This document shows positions 5,859-21,640 of a DNA stretch of 64,000 nucleotides, in pieces. The stretch covers positions 908,727 to 972,726 of the forward strand of contig JAGWFT010000001.1 in assembly GCA_028867755.1 (NCBI GenBank), read 5' to 3'. Within the stretch, counting starts at the first letter, position 1. Each line of letters opens with the position of its first letter. The DNA comes from Nitrososphaerota archaeon. Lineage in GTDB: Archaea; Thermoproteota; Nitrososphaeria; Nitrososphaerales; Nitrosopumilaceae. The notes beneath the pieces were generated by a model that was given only the letters and a program-made list of their open reading frames with translations, was not told where the DNA came from and made no database searches. A program made the position numbers and the translations under genes.

Positions 5859-6815
5859 CTAAAATGAGTCGTCGATGCCGAGGCTTTTTCTTAGTATCTT
5901 TGCGACATTTCTTATTGTCACACTGCTAATGCCTGATGCTTTTGCAATCTTGTCCTGAGTAAACTTTTCCTCGTTTAGTACTCCAGATATGAACATGGCA
6001 GTTGCTGCAAGCGATATCGGGCTTTTGCCATCTGTTATTCCTTTTTCTTTTGCTCTGTAAAGTATGTCAAGTGCATCTCTTTTTGCTTTCTCGCTAGAAC
6101 CAATGGCTGTACCTATCTTTGATACAAACTCTGATGGGTCAAATGCATCTACTTGCAAGTCAAGTGCCTTGACAAATACTCTATAGTGTCTTGAAAGCTC
6201 CTTGACTGTTACGTTTCCTGCATGTGCAATATCGCTTAGAGCTCTTGGAACATTTGATTCCCTGCAAGAAATGCATAATGCAGAAAGAATCATTCCTGTT
6301 ATGGTTCTTCCTCTGATGATATTTTTTGTTAGTGCCTTTCTATACAGGTAAGCTGCTCTTTCAATTACAGCATCTGAGAGCTCAAGTTTTGATTGTATTG
6401 ATGTCATGACAGCAAATGCTGCACGTAAGTTTCTCTCAGTTGAGCTTGACTTGCTTCTGCTGTCCCACGTTCTTAATCTATTAAACGTGTACTTCATGTA
6501 ACTTGAAATTGAATTTCCTAATGCATCTCTTCCAGTGTTTCCAATCATTGTTGACAATCCCTTGTCGTGAATGGCAAGTGTAGAGGCCATTCCTGTTCTT
6601 GCATTGTTGTTATACTCTTCTGGAGTGAATGATTTTTGCTCAGGACCGGTATCTTCTACCTTGTCTGCTAGTACTGCACCACAACTTGCGCACAAGATCT
6701 CGCCTCGTATGTTGTCAGTAATCAGCGGTCCATGGGATTTTCTACCGTCTGCGCACGCATCCTTGGTGCCTTTTTGAACTATACACTTCTGTCCGGATTT
6801 GCTATTAACTATCAT
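5859..6815 (-). CDS. tfb: transcription initiation factor B (TFIIB homologue)
   Basis: The 318-residue protein has an N-terminal zinc ribbon, a B-reader/linker region and two cyclin-like repeats (about 105-200 and 205-318). The C-terminal helix-turn-helix, near SGISSVTIRNVAKILRKSLG, binds the BRE next to the TATA box. TFB recruits RNA polymerase to TBP-bound promoters. The ribbon is unusual: the second knuckle is a normal CASC (42-45), but the first pair appears to be Cys21 and His28 rather than C-x2-C. Archaea of this group usually carry several TFB paralogues, so this one may serve a subset of promoters. It converges on carB with a 6-nt gap. Confidence 0.93.
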   Translation of the reverse strand: MIVNSKSGQKCIVQKGTKDACADGRKSHGPLITDNIRGEILCASCGAVLADKVEDTGPEQKSFTPEEYNNNARTGMASTLAIHDKGLSTMIGNTGRDALGNSISSYMKYTFNRLRTWDSRSKSSSTERNLRAAFAVMTSIQSKLELSDAVIERAAYLYRKALTKNIIRGRTITGMILSALCISCRESNVPRALSDIAHAGNVTVKELSRHYRVFVKALDLQVDAFDPSEFVSKIGTAIGSSEKAKRDALDILYRAKEKGITDGKSPISLAATAMFISGVLNEEKFTQDKIAKASGISSVTIRNVAKILRKSLGIDDSF

Positions 6816-6818
6816 TTG

Positions 6819-6850
6819 TATATCTAATATAGTAATGAAAGTATTTAAAC
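6819..6850 (-). promoter_or_regulatory. tfb promoter with TATA box and dyad
   Basis: Read on the minus strand, a TATA box (GTTTAAATAC, 6841-6850) is followed by a TATAT-TAG-ATATA dyad (6819-6831) just before the ATG at 6813-6815. The spacing fits a leaderless or near-leaderless transcript. The same order, TTTAAATACTT then a TA-rich dyad, is found upstream of the quinone reductase gene at 7568-7602. Confidence 0.6.
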
Positions 6851-6930
6851 ACTAAAGTAAGAAACCGGATATTAACTGAAGGCATGGTAAGTTGGGTATT
6901 TAAAAAAAGACAGAATTTTGGAGTATCGCA

Positions 6931-7551
6931 CTAGCCGTACCAATCGTGAGCTATTGCATGTATGTCCTTGATTGCCTTTGCAAAATTGCTTGCCTTGGTA
7001 TCCTCGTCTCTGTTCATTGCTTCTGCCAAGACTCCCTTCACTTCACTGAATCCCATGAATTGAAACTCGGCATTGGAAAGAGACAATGCGTGCTCCCATG
7101 CTTTCATTGGCCCAGTGCTGTAAGCACCTCCGCTAGAAACTATTGTTAGTGCTTTTTTCCCTTGCATCAATCCGGCATAGCTTCCATCTTTGGCATCCCA
7201 CGTGTGACCTTTTAGCATGATAGAATCAAACCAAGCCTTGACTGCTGCTGGCATGGAAAAGTTGAACATTGGGTATGCCAGTACTACCATGTCAGCCGAT
7301 TTTACCTGCTCTGTCATCTTGTCCATCTTGGTCAAGAGGCTCTTTTGTTCTGGTGGCAGGCTCTGCCCTAAATAATCACGCGAGATGTATGCCATAAGAT
7401 TATCAGACAAGAATAGGTCTGGGACATCCTTGGTAAGATCAAGCTCTTCAATTGTAGAGTTTTTTACTCTAGACTTGAATTCTTCTAGAATTTTTCTTGT
7501 GTTGGAGCGCTCTCCGCGCGGAACATATTTTACAACAAGTGTCTTGGTCAA
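6931..7551 (-). CDS. FMN-dependent NAD(P)H:quinone / azo reductase, flavodoxin fold
   Basis: The 206-residue protein matches the AcpD/AzoR family: an N-terminal beta strand and phosphate-binding segment (VKYVPRGERSNTRKILEEF), the YPMFNFSMPAAVKAWFD block and the GGAYSTG FMN loop near residue 140. These enzymes use two-electron transfer from NAD(P)H to reduce quinones or azo compounds and act in oxidative or electrophile defence. The start is TTG at 7549-7551, preceded on the minus strand by AGGTGA, an acceptable Shine-Dalgarno sequence. It is divergent from an HxlR regulator across a 93-bp region with a strong dyad, a common arrangement for HxlR-controlled reductases. Confidence 0.88.
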   Translation of the reverse strand: MTKTLVVKYVPRGERSNTRKILEEFKSRVKNSTIEELDLTKDVPDLFLSDNLMAYISRDYLGQSLPPEQKSLLTKMDKMTEQVKSADMVVLAYPMFNFSMPAAVKAWFDSIMLKGHTWDAKDGSYAGLMQGKKALTIVSSGGAYSTGPMKAWEHALSLSNAEFQFMGFSEVKGVLAEAMNRDEDTKASNFAKAIKDIHAIAHDWYG

Positions 7552-7567
7552 TCTATCTCACCTAAAT

Positions 7568-7602
7568 TTTCTATACTAGATATAGAAAGGTAAGTATTTA
7601 AA
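7568..7602 (-). promoter_or_regulatory. reductase promoter with 8-bp inverted repeat, probable HxlR operator
   Basis: TTTCTATA (7568-7575) and TATAGAAA (7581-7588) form a perfect inverted repeat around a 5-nt spacer. It abuts the minus-strand TATA region TTTAAATACTTACC (7589-7602). A protein bound here would sit at the transcription start of the reductase gene, as expected of a repressor. The divergent hxlR gene is the obvious candidate for the DNA-binding partner. Confidence 0.65.
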
Positions 7603-7644
7603 TCAGGCAGTAACTACAAGTAAATCAACTGAGGTTGTGGTGAG

Positions 7645-8055
7645 TTGAAAGAAGAAGAGTGCAACATACTGATGGACAACATGAAAGCATGTCCTATTGA
7701 CAATACATTTGCAATAATTGGAAGAAAGTTCACCGTACACATCATACGAAATATGACACGACTGAACCAAAGTAGATTCAATGAATTTCTTGATTCAATT
7801 GAGGGCATAAACCCAAAGACACTGTCCGCAAGACTGCGCGAGATGGAAAAAAATGGGTTGATTGAGAGGAAGATCTACCCTGGGAGCCCTGTAAGGATAG
7901 AATATTCCATGACTGAAAAAGGCAAGGCGCTAAAACCAGTTCTGGAACAAATGGCTGCGTTTTCTATGCAACACTGCGCAAAAGAAGTCTTCAAGGATGG
8001 AAAGCCTCGTGTATTCAAACAAGTGTTTGAAAAACCTCCAAGGATTGCAAAATAA
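7645..8055 (+). CDS. HxlR-family winged-helix transcriptional regulator
   Basis: The 136-residue protein has the HxlR signature: an N-terminal Cys (Cys6 and Cys16, in CPID), the helix block FAIIGRKFTVHIIRNM, then RFNEFLDSIEGINPKTLSARLREMEKNGLIERKIYP and a wing SPVRIEYSMTEKGKAL. HxlR dimers often sense electrophiles or oxidants through the N-terminal cysteine and repress adjacent oxidoreductase genes. TTG 7645 is the start in frame; an ATG at 7672 would remove the first Cys. TTTAAAT at about 7597-7603 may be its TATA box. A decayed copy of this gene's 3' end lies at 21421-21496. Confidence 0.9.
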   Translation: MKEEECNILMDNMKACPIDNTFAIIGRKFTVHIIRNMTRLNQSRFNEFLDSIEGINPKTLSARLREMEKNGLIERKIYPGSPVRIEYSMTEKGKALKPVLEQMAAFSMQHCAKEVFKDGKPRVFKQVFEKPPRIAK

Positions 8056-8117
8056 AATTCTAAAAACGTTTACACTTACCCCAAGTTAATCTGATTTCCC
8101 AAACTTCACTTTCCATC

Positions 8118-8147
8118 TTATATACTTACCATTGTATAGTAACTATA
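8118..8147 (+). promoter_or_regulatory. promoter and palindrome upstream of the Cys/His-rich gene
   Basis: TTATATACTTACC (8118-8130) provides a TATA box. The odd-length palindrome TATAGT-A-ACTATA (8135-8147) follows immediately and ends 10 nt before the ATG at 8158. The ACTTACC extension and downstream dyad match the layout at the reductase promoter (7568-7602), which suggests the same regulator. Confidence 0.6.
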
Positions 8148-8157
8148 AGAACGTAAT

Positions 8158-8496
8158 ATGGAATGTACATCTGAAACATGCAATACAAAAGAACATGCAA
8201 CGTGTTCATGTAGCTCTGAAATGCATGGTGAACAATGCGGATGCGATGAAATAGATGCAGTACATCATGTCATGGATCTGTGGCACAAGGCATTCCATGA
8301 CGCGATGCACGAAGCCCAAGTGGAACGACTCAAAAAAAGAATAGATGCTAATTTTGGGCCTACCATGGACAAAGCAGCTGATGCGTTTATTGAAACAGCA
8401 GGCAAGGTATTCCAATCCGTTGTTGTAAAATCCGAAGCAAAAAAAGAGCTAGAATCAAAGTTGCAGAAAATCCTTTCTGAAACAAGTAGGAGATAA
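8158..8496 (+). CDS. Cys/His-rich small protein, possible metal- or redox-binding, unknown function
   Basis: The 112-residue protein is of a family I do not recognise. Its first 30 residues hold seven cysteines (C3, C8, C16, C18, C27, C29 among them, as CxC pairs) with several His. A His-rich amphipathic helix follows (HHVMDLWHKAFHDAMHEA), then a charged helical tail. The pattern suggests a soluble metal-binding or thiol-redox protein. It follows hxlR in the same direction but has its own TATA box and operator-like palindrome, and a strong hairpin terminator overlaps its stop codon. Function is inferred only from composition and context. Confidence 0.75.
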   Translation: MECTSETCNTKEHATCSCSSEMHGEQCGCDEIDAVHHVMDLWHKAFHDAMHEAQVERLKKRIDANFGPTMDKAADAFIETAGKVFQSVVVKSEAKKELESKLQKILSETSRR

Positions 8497-20134: not shown

Positions 20135-20180
20135 GTGCAACTATTAATCTTGGGTGCTCTTCCAACTTACCACATTTTCA

Positions 20181-20214
20181 TCTAGTAACTAGATTGTCAC
20201 TTTGCACTTTATAT
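20181..20214 (+). promoter_or_regulatory. palindrome and TATA box upstream of the short-chain dehydrogenase
   Basis: TCTAGT-A-ACTAGA (20181-20193) is a perfect odd palindrome sharing the TAGTAACTA core with 8135-8147. An ACTTACC heptamer lies just upstream (20165-20171), and TTTATAT (20208-20214) about 31 nt before the ATG is the likely TATA box. Here the palindrome is upstream of the TATA box, so binding there could activate rather than block. Confidence 0.5.
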
Positions 20215-20244
20215 GGATTGTAGCTGTATGGTAATTGTACAAAA

Positions 20245-21081
20245 ATGACAGATCAAAAAGTTGCTATTGTTACTGGTAGTTCAAGTGGAATAGGATATGA
20301 GACTGCACTTGTACTTGCAAGAAATGGTTTTCGTACATATGCAACTATGAGGAATCTAGAAAAAGCAAAAGCTATCTCAGATGTAGCAAAAAAAGAAAAA
20401 CTTTCATTGCATACAATAAAGTTAGATGTTACAGATGAAAAATCTGTAAACGACGCCATTAAAACTATCAAGTCTGAAGCAGGAAGAATTGATGTACTGG
20501 TAAATAACGCAGGCTATGGTCTAATGGGATCTCTTGAGGATCTATTGATGAGTGAGATAAAGGCGCAGTATGAAACAAACGTCTTTGGTCTGATACGAGT
20601 AACCCAAGCAGTTCTGCCTATTATGAGGGAGCAAAAAGGTGGCATTATTGTAAATATTAGCTCTATAGGTGGGAAGATGGCAATGCCGTTGTCATCGCCA
20701 TACATTGGTACAAAATTTGCAGTTGAGGGCCTCAGCGAATCTATTGCATATGATCTAGAGCCATTTGGAATCAAAATTATCCTAATAGAGCCAGGTGCAA
20801 TCAAGACCAATTTTGACACTGGCATGATAGTAGCTCAAAAAAATCAAAACCCAATCTCTCCTTATTACAACGGCATGCAAAAGTTGCAGAGTTCTCTTAA
20901 TGCCATTTTAAAGAATGGCACCTTGCCTGCCAAGGTCGCTGATGTAATATTAAACGCAATTACAATACCCAATCCTAATCTTAGATATACTGTAGGTGAT
21001 GATGCTGCCTTGCTTGCACAAAAAAGAAGAGAGCTGCCAGATTCAGAATTTCGTAAACTTGTTTCAGAGTTTCTCAAATAA
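20245..21081 (+). CDS. short-chain dehydrogenase/reductase
   Basis: The 278-residue classical SDR has the nucleotide motif TGSSSGIGYETA, the NNAGYG motif, catalytic Ser in NISSIGG and the YIGTK Tyr-Lys pair. The LIEPGAIKTNF segment follows the active site. The Arg after the first motif (TMRNLEKA) suggests NADP(H). The substrate is unknown. Its upstream palindrome resembles that of the HxlR-linked genes, and a decayed hxlR tail lies 340 nt downstream, so it may once have had its own HxlR regulator. Confidence 0.88.
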   Translation: MTDQKVAIVTGSSSGIGYETALVLARNGFRTYATMRNLEKAKAISDVAKKEKLSLHTIKLDVTDEKSVNDAIKTIKSEAGRIDVLVNNAGYGLMGSLEDLLMSEIKAQYETNVFGLIRVTQAVLPIMREQKGGIIVNISSIGGKMAMPLSSPYIGTKFAVEGLSESIAYDLEPFGIKIILIEPGAIKTNFDTGMIVAQKNQNPISPYYNGMQKLQSSLNAILKNGTLPAKVADVILNAITIPNPNLRYTVGDDAALLAQKRRELPDSEFRKLVSEFLK

Positions 21082-21244: not shown

Positions 21245-21640
21245 CTAGTATCACACAGTTTTTGTGGACAAACAATTTATCATGCCTGGTATATCGCAAT
21301 TAAGACCATAGGACTTCAACGGAATGATGATAATTACGGCAATCCTTTGACTGTCGGAGTGCTGTGGTCACTCTAACTTTAATATGCAAAAAGGATTAGT
21401 TTCCTATCTGTAAGACATAAGATGTCTTCAAGGTATTGCGGTATTCAAACAAATATTTGGAAAATCTCCGGGAATTGTAAAATAAAATTCTAAAAATCTA
21501 TTGCGTTTATCTTAAATTACTCTGATTTTCTCAAGTTCTATTTTATTTTTCAGACTATTGTCTCAGCTCTAAATCCTGTATATCAATTGATAAAAACAAT
21601 TGATACAATTCATTATAATTTCAATTTAAAATGAACCAAA
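21245..21640. other. 396-nt gap, mostly non-coding
   Basis: Apart from the hxlR remnant at 21421-21496 I see no coding feature. The stretch 21245-21420 has no convincing open frame. The last 100 nt before the secreted-protein gene are AT-rich and contain several TTTAAA/TATAAT-like elements that could be its promoter. Confidence 0.5.
21421..21496 (+). pseudogene. remnant of an HxlR gene 3' end
   Basis: Bases 21441-21496 match 8011-8066 at 48 of 56 positions with no gaps, and all eight differences are transitions. The match covers the final codons, the TAA stop (21483-21485) and about 11 nt beyond. Read in frame it gives VFKQIFGKSPGIVK-stop against VFKQVFEKPPRIAK-stop. A preceding block (21421-21433) matches 7984-7996, with seven nucleotides missing in between. 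The N-terminal part of the gene was not found. Confidence 0.75.

Follow-up and report, generated by a model that had tools for sequence, protein, structure and literature searches.

A conserved promoter module marks a putative HxlR regulon that includes a TFB gene in Nitrosotalea-type archaea

RESULTS

Genes of the locus and their products

We analyzed a stretch of archaeal DNA 64 kb in length (hereafter the window) that contains a TFB gene, a reductase gene, an hxlR gene and a gene for a small Cys/His-rich protein (CH), with an SDR gene farther along (Table 1). Judging from its relatives, the source would be an acid-soil ammonia-oxidising archaeon of the Ca. Nitrosotalea type. The named relatives of the hxlR gene include one from Candidatus Nitrosotalea sp. 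TS, alongside MAGs labelled Thaumarchaeota or Nitrosopumilaceae, and within the genome set compared the hxlR-type loci of the relatives belong to the same genus as the window genome.

Table 1. Positions in the window of the genes, putative operators, TATA boxes and promoter modules
Feature	Positions	Strand	Details
tfb-A	5859–6815	-	Divergent TFB paralogue, hxlR-linked across the genus; PF00382, E 6e-29
Full tfb module	6813–6894	-	Model R1, E 1e-12
Putative operator at tfb	6817–6833	-	Core TATATCTAATATA at 6819–6831; adjoins the start codon (ATG at 6815)
tfb TATA box	6842–6849	-	TTTAAATA; ACTTTC follows
red	6931–7551	-	FMN-dependent NADH-azoreductase/quinone-reductase family protein; PF02525 (Flavodoxin_2)
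Full red module	7567–7647	-	Model R1, E 1.7e-14; includes AGTAACTA at 7609–7616
Putative operator at red	7570–7586	-	TCTATACTAGATATAGA; in the gap shared with hxlR
red TATA box	7595–7602	-	ACTTACC follows
hxlR-A	7645–8055	+	HxlR/DUF24 regulator; PF01638, E 1e-23; YodB match, E 9e-17
Full CH module	8074–8151	+	Model R1, E 1.7e-18
CH TATA box; TATA plus ACTTACC	8117–8124; 8117–8130	+	From the sequence
Putative operator at CH	8133–8149	+	TGTATAGTAACTATAAG; core TATAGTAACTATA
CH	8158–8496	+	Small protein, Cys-rich N terminus, helical C terminus
SDR promoter module	20163–20244	+	Upstream element including dyad (20180–20194), TATA (20207–20216); model R1, E 2e-8
SDR oxidoreductase	20245–21081	+	PF00106, E 9e-53
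Decayed copy of hxlR 3' end and start of hxlR downstream promoter	21441–21528	+	blastn 78% over 88 bp, E 4e-15

The product of hxlR-A scored 83.4 bits against the winged-helix model PF01638 (cut-off 20.8), which places it in the HxlR/DUF24 family, and it matches YodB, HypR/YybR, HxlR and QsrR. Two of its cysteines, Cys16 in an N-terminal Cys-Pro and Cys111, align with both redox cysteines of YodB. All 28 correctly framed orthologues have Cys16 (L009 and L035, frame or assembly artefacts, are left aside), and Cys111 is found in 29 of 30. A paralogue, hxlR-B (G000:C24:218944-219785; L001), is 63% identical to hxlR-A and keeps both cysteines. It is divergent from a small gene that we read as DsrE-like (no match in Pfam or NCBIfam), and the promoter that the two share is the module described below, with a weaker dyad.

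By family comparison, red encodes an AzoR-type quinone reductase. Searches of Pfam and NCBIfam with the CH protein returned no match, and PHROGs no confident one; its fold was predicted with low confidence (pLDDT 63, pTM 0.25). A distant paralogue of CH, about 50% identical, occurs without the module in G014, G018 and G021 (L207/L271 and L204-L206), and G018 has a second copy of the CH promoter at a contig end.

TFB-A has two cyclin-like repeats, matched by PF00382 in two stretches. Its zinc ribbon departs from the canonical CxxC...CxxC pattern and scores 23 bits against a PF08271 cut-off of 29. Judged by its core domains, the protein is still a TFB, one with a variant ribbon. In a tree with 23 other TFBs, the hxlR-linked TFBs form one well-supported clade (100/99). 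Their usual first CPxCG pair is reduced, with the first Cys missing in L017 and L027, and the stretch after VTIRN differs from that of other TFBs. The residues that would read the BRE, by analogy with human TFIIB, are VTIR, and these are unchanged.

TATA boxes and dyads at three promoters

The initial annotation had described, at the promoters of tfb, red and CH, a TATA box followed by ACTT(ACC) and then by a TA-rich inverted repeat. All three promoters have these elements in this order, at the positions claimed; ACTT continues with ACC or TC, and the repeat is a dyad of the form TATA-N5-TATA. Across the 1.545 Mb of this genome that were scanned, the dyad pattern was counted 37 times, or once per 42 kb. 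The 64-kb window contains three occurrences, exactly the three described, and all lie within 1.33 kb, where 0.03 would be expected (Poisson probability about 5e-6, calculated from the genome rate). The stricter pattern TATABTNAVTATA missed two of the three window sites, and we used TATA-N5-TATA and a position weight matrix (PWM) instead. The PWM was symmetrised and built from relatives' sites with this genome left out. In the genome-wide ranking CH came first, red second and tfb third; later matches scored lower and lay mostly in coding sequence.

TATA boxes in this genome lie mostly 30–34 nt before starts, a leaderless mode, and the TATA-to-ATG distance of tfb matches. The tfb mRNA is thus probably leaderless, with the dyad covering the start-site region. 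We rejected an RNA hairpin or attenuator on grounds of position, as at tfb and CH the dyad is mostly upstream of the expected start. Nor is ACTT after TATA a generic promoter feature, given that it directly follows only 5 of 426 TTTAWAT boxes in this genome. AGTAACTA, which the initial annotation had also pointed out upstream of hxlR itself, is indeed present at 7609–7616 but is not an operator; it aligns with the TATA-proximal ACTT element of the red promoter. Just upstream of another, third HxlR gene lies ATTAAATACTTACC (G000:C35:201937), which suggests that HxlR-associated promoters share TATA plus ACTTACC.

An 82-bp promoter module

Promoters of both classes, including those on the hxlR side, align over 82 columns with no internal gaps. 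The order of elements is ACTT-type upstream repeats, TATA, CTTACC and dyad: ACTTACC occupies columns 3–9, a TCAnyTGAT element columns 16–24, TCACTTNCC columns 35–43, TATA columns 46–53, CTTACC columns 53–58 and the dyad columns 63–77. Across promoter classes, palindromy was seen only at the column-70 centre, that of the dyad (0.74 complementary versus 0.29 for the control, sd 0.09). Besides the dyad, the ACTT-type repeats farther upstream form another conserved element. We considered them as a second dyad and rejected this, as they are palindrome-like only in a subset of hxlR-side promoters and have no class-wide centre.

A model of the 82-column alignment (R1) found exactly five places in this genome: the CH, red, tfb and SDR promoters (Table 1) and that between hxlR-B and the DsrE-like gene (E 5e-6). 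A whole-promoter profile trained on relatives outside the window clade matched CH, tfb, SDR and red, to which an hxlR-side profile added the divergent hxlR-B/DsrE-like promoter; nothing further appeared in this genome before an E of about 5. A relatives-trained model recovers all four promoters named in the initial annotation and almost nothing else in this genome. When the model was split, the upstream half and the TATA/dyad half each recovered tfb, red and CH as leading matches. With the upstream half alone, SDR was the best match in the genome (E 4e-5) and hxlR-B was found weakly.

Among 37 genomes of the genus, the window's included, the module has strong matches in 30 of the 30 with a close hxlR. 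The seven congeners that lack a close hxlR gave no strong match and one weak partial match (E 0.011); three of these seven are less than 80% complete. The calculated probability of this split by chance, about 1e-7, is inflated by shared descent and linkage, and the co-occurrence itself is partly a product of both, with hxlR adjoining several of the sites. In four other genera (G038, G043, G052 and G057), module matches lie within about 400 bp of hxlR.

The SDR promoter

Upstream of the SDR gene, the initial annotation had placed a fourth palindrome of the same kind. The dyad is there (ATCTAGTAACTAGAT, 20180–20194), but it lies upstream of TATA, unlike in the other three promoters, and is not a positional operator. 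At the operator position is a degenerate copy, TGTATGGTAATTGTACA (20225–20241), with three mismatches to the consensus. The SDR orthologue of a relative (G017) has a near-perfect putative operator, CATATAGTAACTATACA, at that position. Leaving the SDR gene out of the regulon, on the grounds that its dyad is upstream of TATA and was missed by the PWM, was overturned by the whole-promoter profiles and the G017 operator. The decayed 88-bp remnant of the hxlR 3' end lies just past the SDR gene, so the SDR promoter may have arrived with a duplicated hxlR segment.

A rival reading is that the promoters are alike simply as duplicated intergenic DNA around hxlR, of no regulatory meaning. Pieces do appear to have spread in this way, since the promoters flanking hxlR are inverted copies of each other and an hxlR remnant sits beside the SDR gene. 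Yet the same 82 columns are found across about 27 species, with the positions of TATA, ACTT and dyad fixed and the spacers free, and the upstream and operator halves independently recover the same core promoters. We therefore disfavour duplication without regulatory meaning as highly improbable.

Conservation of the dyad and linkage of hxlR to tfb

Conservation of the dyads at orthologous promoters had been set beforehand as a test of the regulon, and the outcome was strongly favourable. The dyad stands beside the tfb start codon in 28 of 28 hxlR-linked tfb promoters of the genus Ca. Nitrosotalea. It is also kept at 26 of the 30 promoters beside hxlR, although the gene served varies: red in the window clade, CH in some genomes and a 28-aa Cys/His peptide in many. 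Six full-length CH orthologues keep the putative CH operator. Among the relatives, about 25 of 30 loci have tfb as the next gene downstream of hxlR, in the same orientation; the window and the two relatives closest to it have tfb and red inverted. This tfb is absent from the tested genomes that lack hxlR-A, where the best TFBs are 46–52% identical to it. Dyad conservation, module specificity, hxlR–tfb linkage and the nature of the target genes thus support what the initial annotation had proposed, a small HxlR regulon of redox genes that would include a TFB.

The 28-aa peptide is conserved and divergent from hxlR (e.g. MTTQAQHKHQWSVISNHWQCNTCGKTYG; L008, L015, L017, L019-L022, L025-L030 and L035). 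It had no match in the window's genome.

Weaker module matches in relatives precede AzoR paralogues, SDRs, MFS transporters and a Zn-alcohol dehydrogenase with a divergent MFS gene; in G043, a match lies ahead of a quinone-oxidoreductase-like gene. By predicted function, these wider targets are a coherent quinone/electrophile detoxification set. At L258-L277, the promoters of AzoR paralogues, MFS transporters and SDRs retain the upstream ACTT repeats and TATA without the dyad. Because several relatives' targets keep the upstream element and TATA and not the dyad, the upstream element is, on these alignments, the broader common denominator; another regulator, or another way of binding, may act on it. 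For the same reason, the dyad may not be the sole, or the main, control site.

DISCUSSION

Which protein reads the module?

We consider it probable that the dyad is the operator of the adjacent HxlR-A, and that the promoters form a YodB/QsrR-like redox repressor regulon that has recruited a divergent TFB. This reading rests on sequence, conservation, linkage, module membership and the cysteine alignment; from these we infer that HxlR binds, that it represses and does not activate, which signal it senses and what the TFB does downstream.

Another regulator, such as HxlR-B or an activator of the upstream repeats, might instead bind the dyad and the repeats, leaving HxlR-A a co-regulated neighbour. 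HxlR-B is 63% identical and has a similar divergent promoter, which carries the module, and it could recognise the same sites. In many relatives, CH stands beside a B-type hxlR with the same operator, and in G001 the sole hxlR is CH-linked, without tfb, and CH has the full module. Promoters with the upstream element and no dyad fit this alternative as well. On the other hand, the tfb dyad is always beside hxlR-A, the tested genomes without hxlR-A also lack this tfb, and palindromes next to the regulator are common in the HxlR family. HxlR-A and HxlR-B may simply share specificity. On balance, we regard control by another regulator as rather unlikely.

Still less probable, in our estimate, is that the module is a promoter type read by TFB-A itself, through a TFB-specific BRE/TATA context, with positive feedback and the dyad secondary. 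Conserved ACTTNCC flanks TATA on both sides, where TFB contacts DNA, and TFB-A is divergent, with its atypical zinc ribbon and altered stretch after VTIRN. However, the distal repeats, some 40 bp ahead of TATA, are past the expected TFB contacts; G001 has the module and lacks this tfb; and the VTIR residues are those of other TFBs.

A proposed mechanism

If HxlR-A is the regulator, the reduced dimer would bind the TATAGTAACTATA-type palindrome between TATA and the transcription start and block initiation; at tfb, it would abut the start codon. When Cys16 reacts with a quinone, another electrophile or an oxidant, either to an adduct or to a Cys16–Cys111' disulfide, HxlR would be released. Release would switch on the azoreductase-type reductase, the accessory TFB and the Cys/His protein, and probably the SDR as well, and a rise in TFB-A could alter promoter choice. 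More speculatively, TFB-A may act as an alternative initiation factor under a redox switch, comparable in part to an alternative sigma factor that a thiol sensor restrains. Once HxlR no longer represses, TFB-A would rise and would in turn drive the detoxification promoters, and possibly a broader stress response; the ACTT upstream repeats would be part of a dedicated promoter type. We hold this extension to be possible, though doubtful.

Comparison with known systems

The closest bacterial parallels are YodB and QsrR, quinone-sensing MarR/DUF24 repressors of Firmicutes. In B. subtilis, YodB recognises a palindrome at azoR1, and its cysteines sense quinones and diamide (PMC8063818); in S. aureus, azoR1 and further genes for quinone detoxification are under QsrR control (PMC6798810). 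Shared features are a homologous regulator, the N-terminal Cys-Pro sensor and C-terminal Cys at the YodB position, and palindromic operators (here predicted). An AzoR-type quinone reductase is a target in the bacteria; red, which is AzoR-like and carries the dyad, would be its counterpart here. QsrR has the consensus GTATA-N5-TATAC, and the operator predicted here would be identical to it. What differs is the setting of archaeal TATA/TFB promoters, the additional upstream repeat element, and the range of predicted targets, with a basal transcription factor and a Cys/His-rich protein among them.

B. subtilis HxlR, a formaldehyde sensor, belongs to the same PF01638 family, and its structure is matched by HxlR-A. 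It is an activator, so the direction of regulation is not readable from the family. By contrast, the dyad here is downstream of TATA, the usual place for archaeal repressors (PMC4287449).

The nearest precedent for a TFB gene under stress control is RosR of Halobacterium salinarum, an oxidative-stress regulator that acts directly on a tfb gene (TfbB) via a palindromic site and so links stress to the basal apparatus (PMC4287449). RosR is global, with 252 bound loci and a 20-bp site (PMC4287449); here the site is different, the predicted regulon covers about five promoters, and the tfb and sensor genes are physically linked.

Mesophilic ammonia-oxidising archaea (AOA) have 4–11 TFBs, proposed to be global regulators (PMC7554672), and TFB switching has been described in N. 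maritimus biofilms (PMC12448741). In the passages of these reports that we consulted, no tfb regulator is named; the present locus offers a candidate regulator and operator. We found no description of an HxlR–TFB link in AOA in the literature searched.

AOA carry several TFB copies. A conserved sensor–TFB pair with a defined putative operator is a concrete, testable case in which chemical stress would set how much of one TFB is present. Genetic manipulation of AOA is difficult, and DNA binding and transcriptomics are feasible for them. If the reading is correct, the cell's choice of initiation factor may shift under chemical stress, and the quinone-sensing logic of YodB/QsrR would have been carried into archaeal promoters. 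Outside the genus, Nitrosopumilus-type loci have TATAGTnACTATA-like sites near hxlR and a CH relative.
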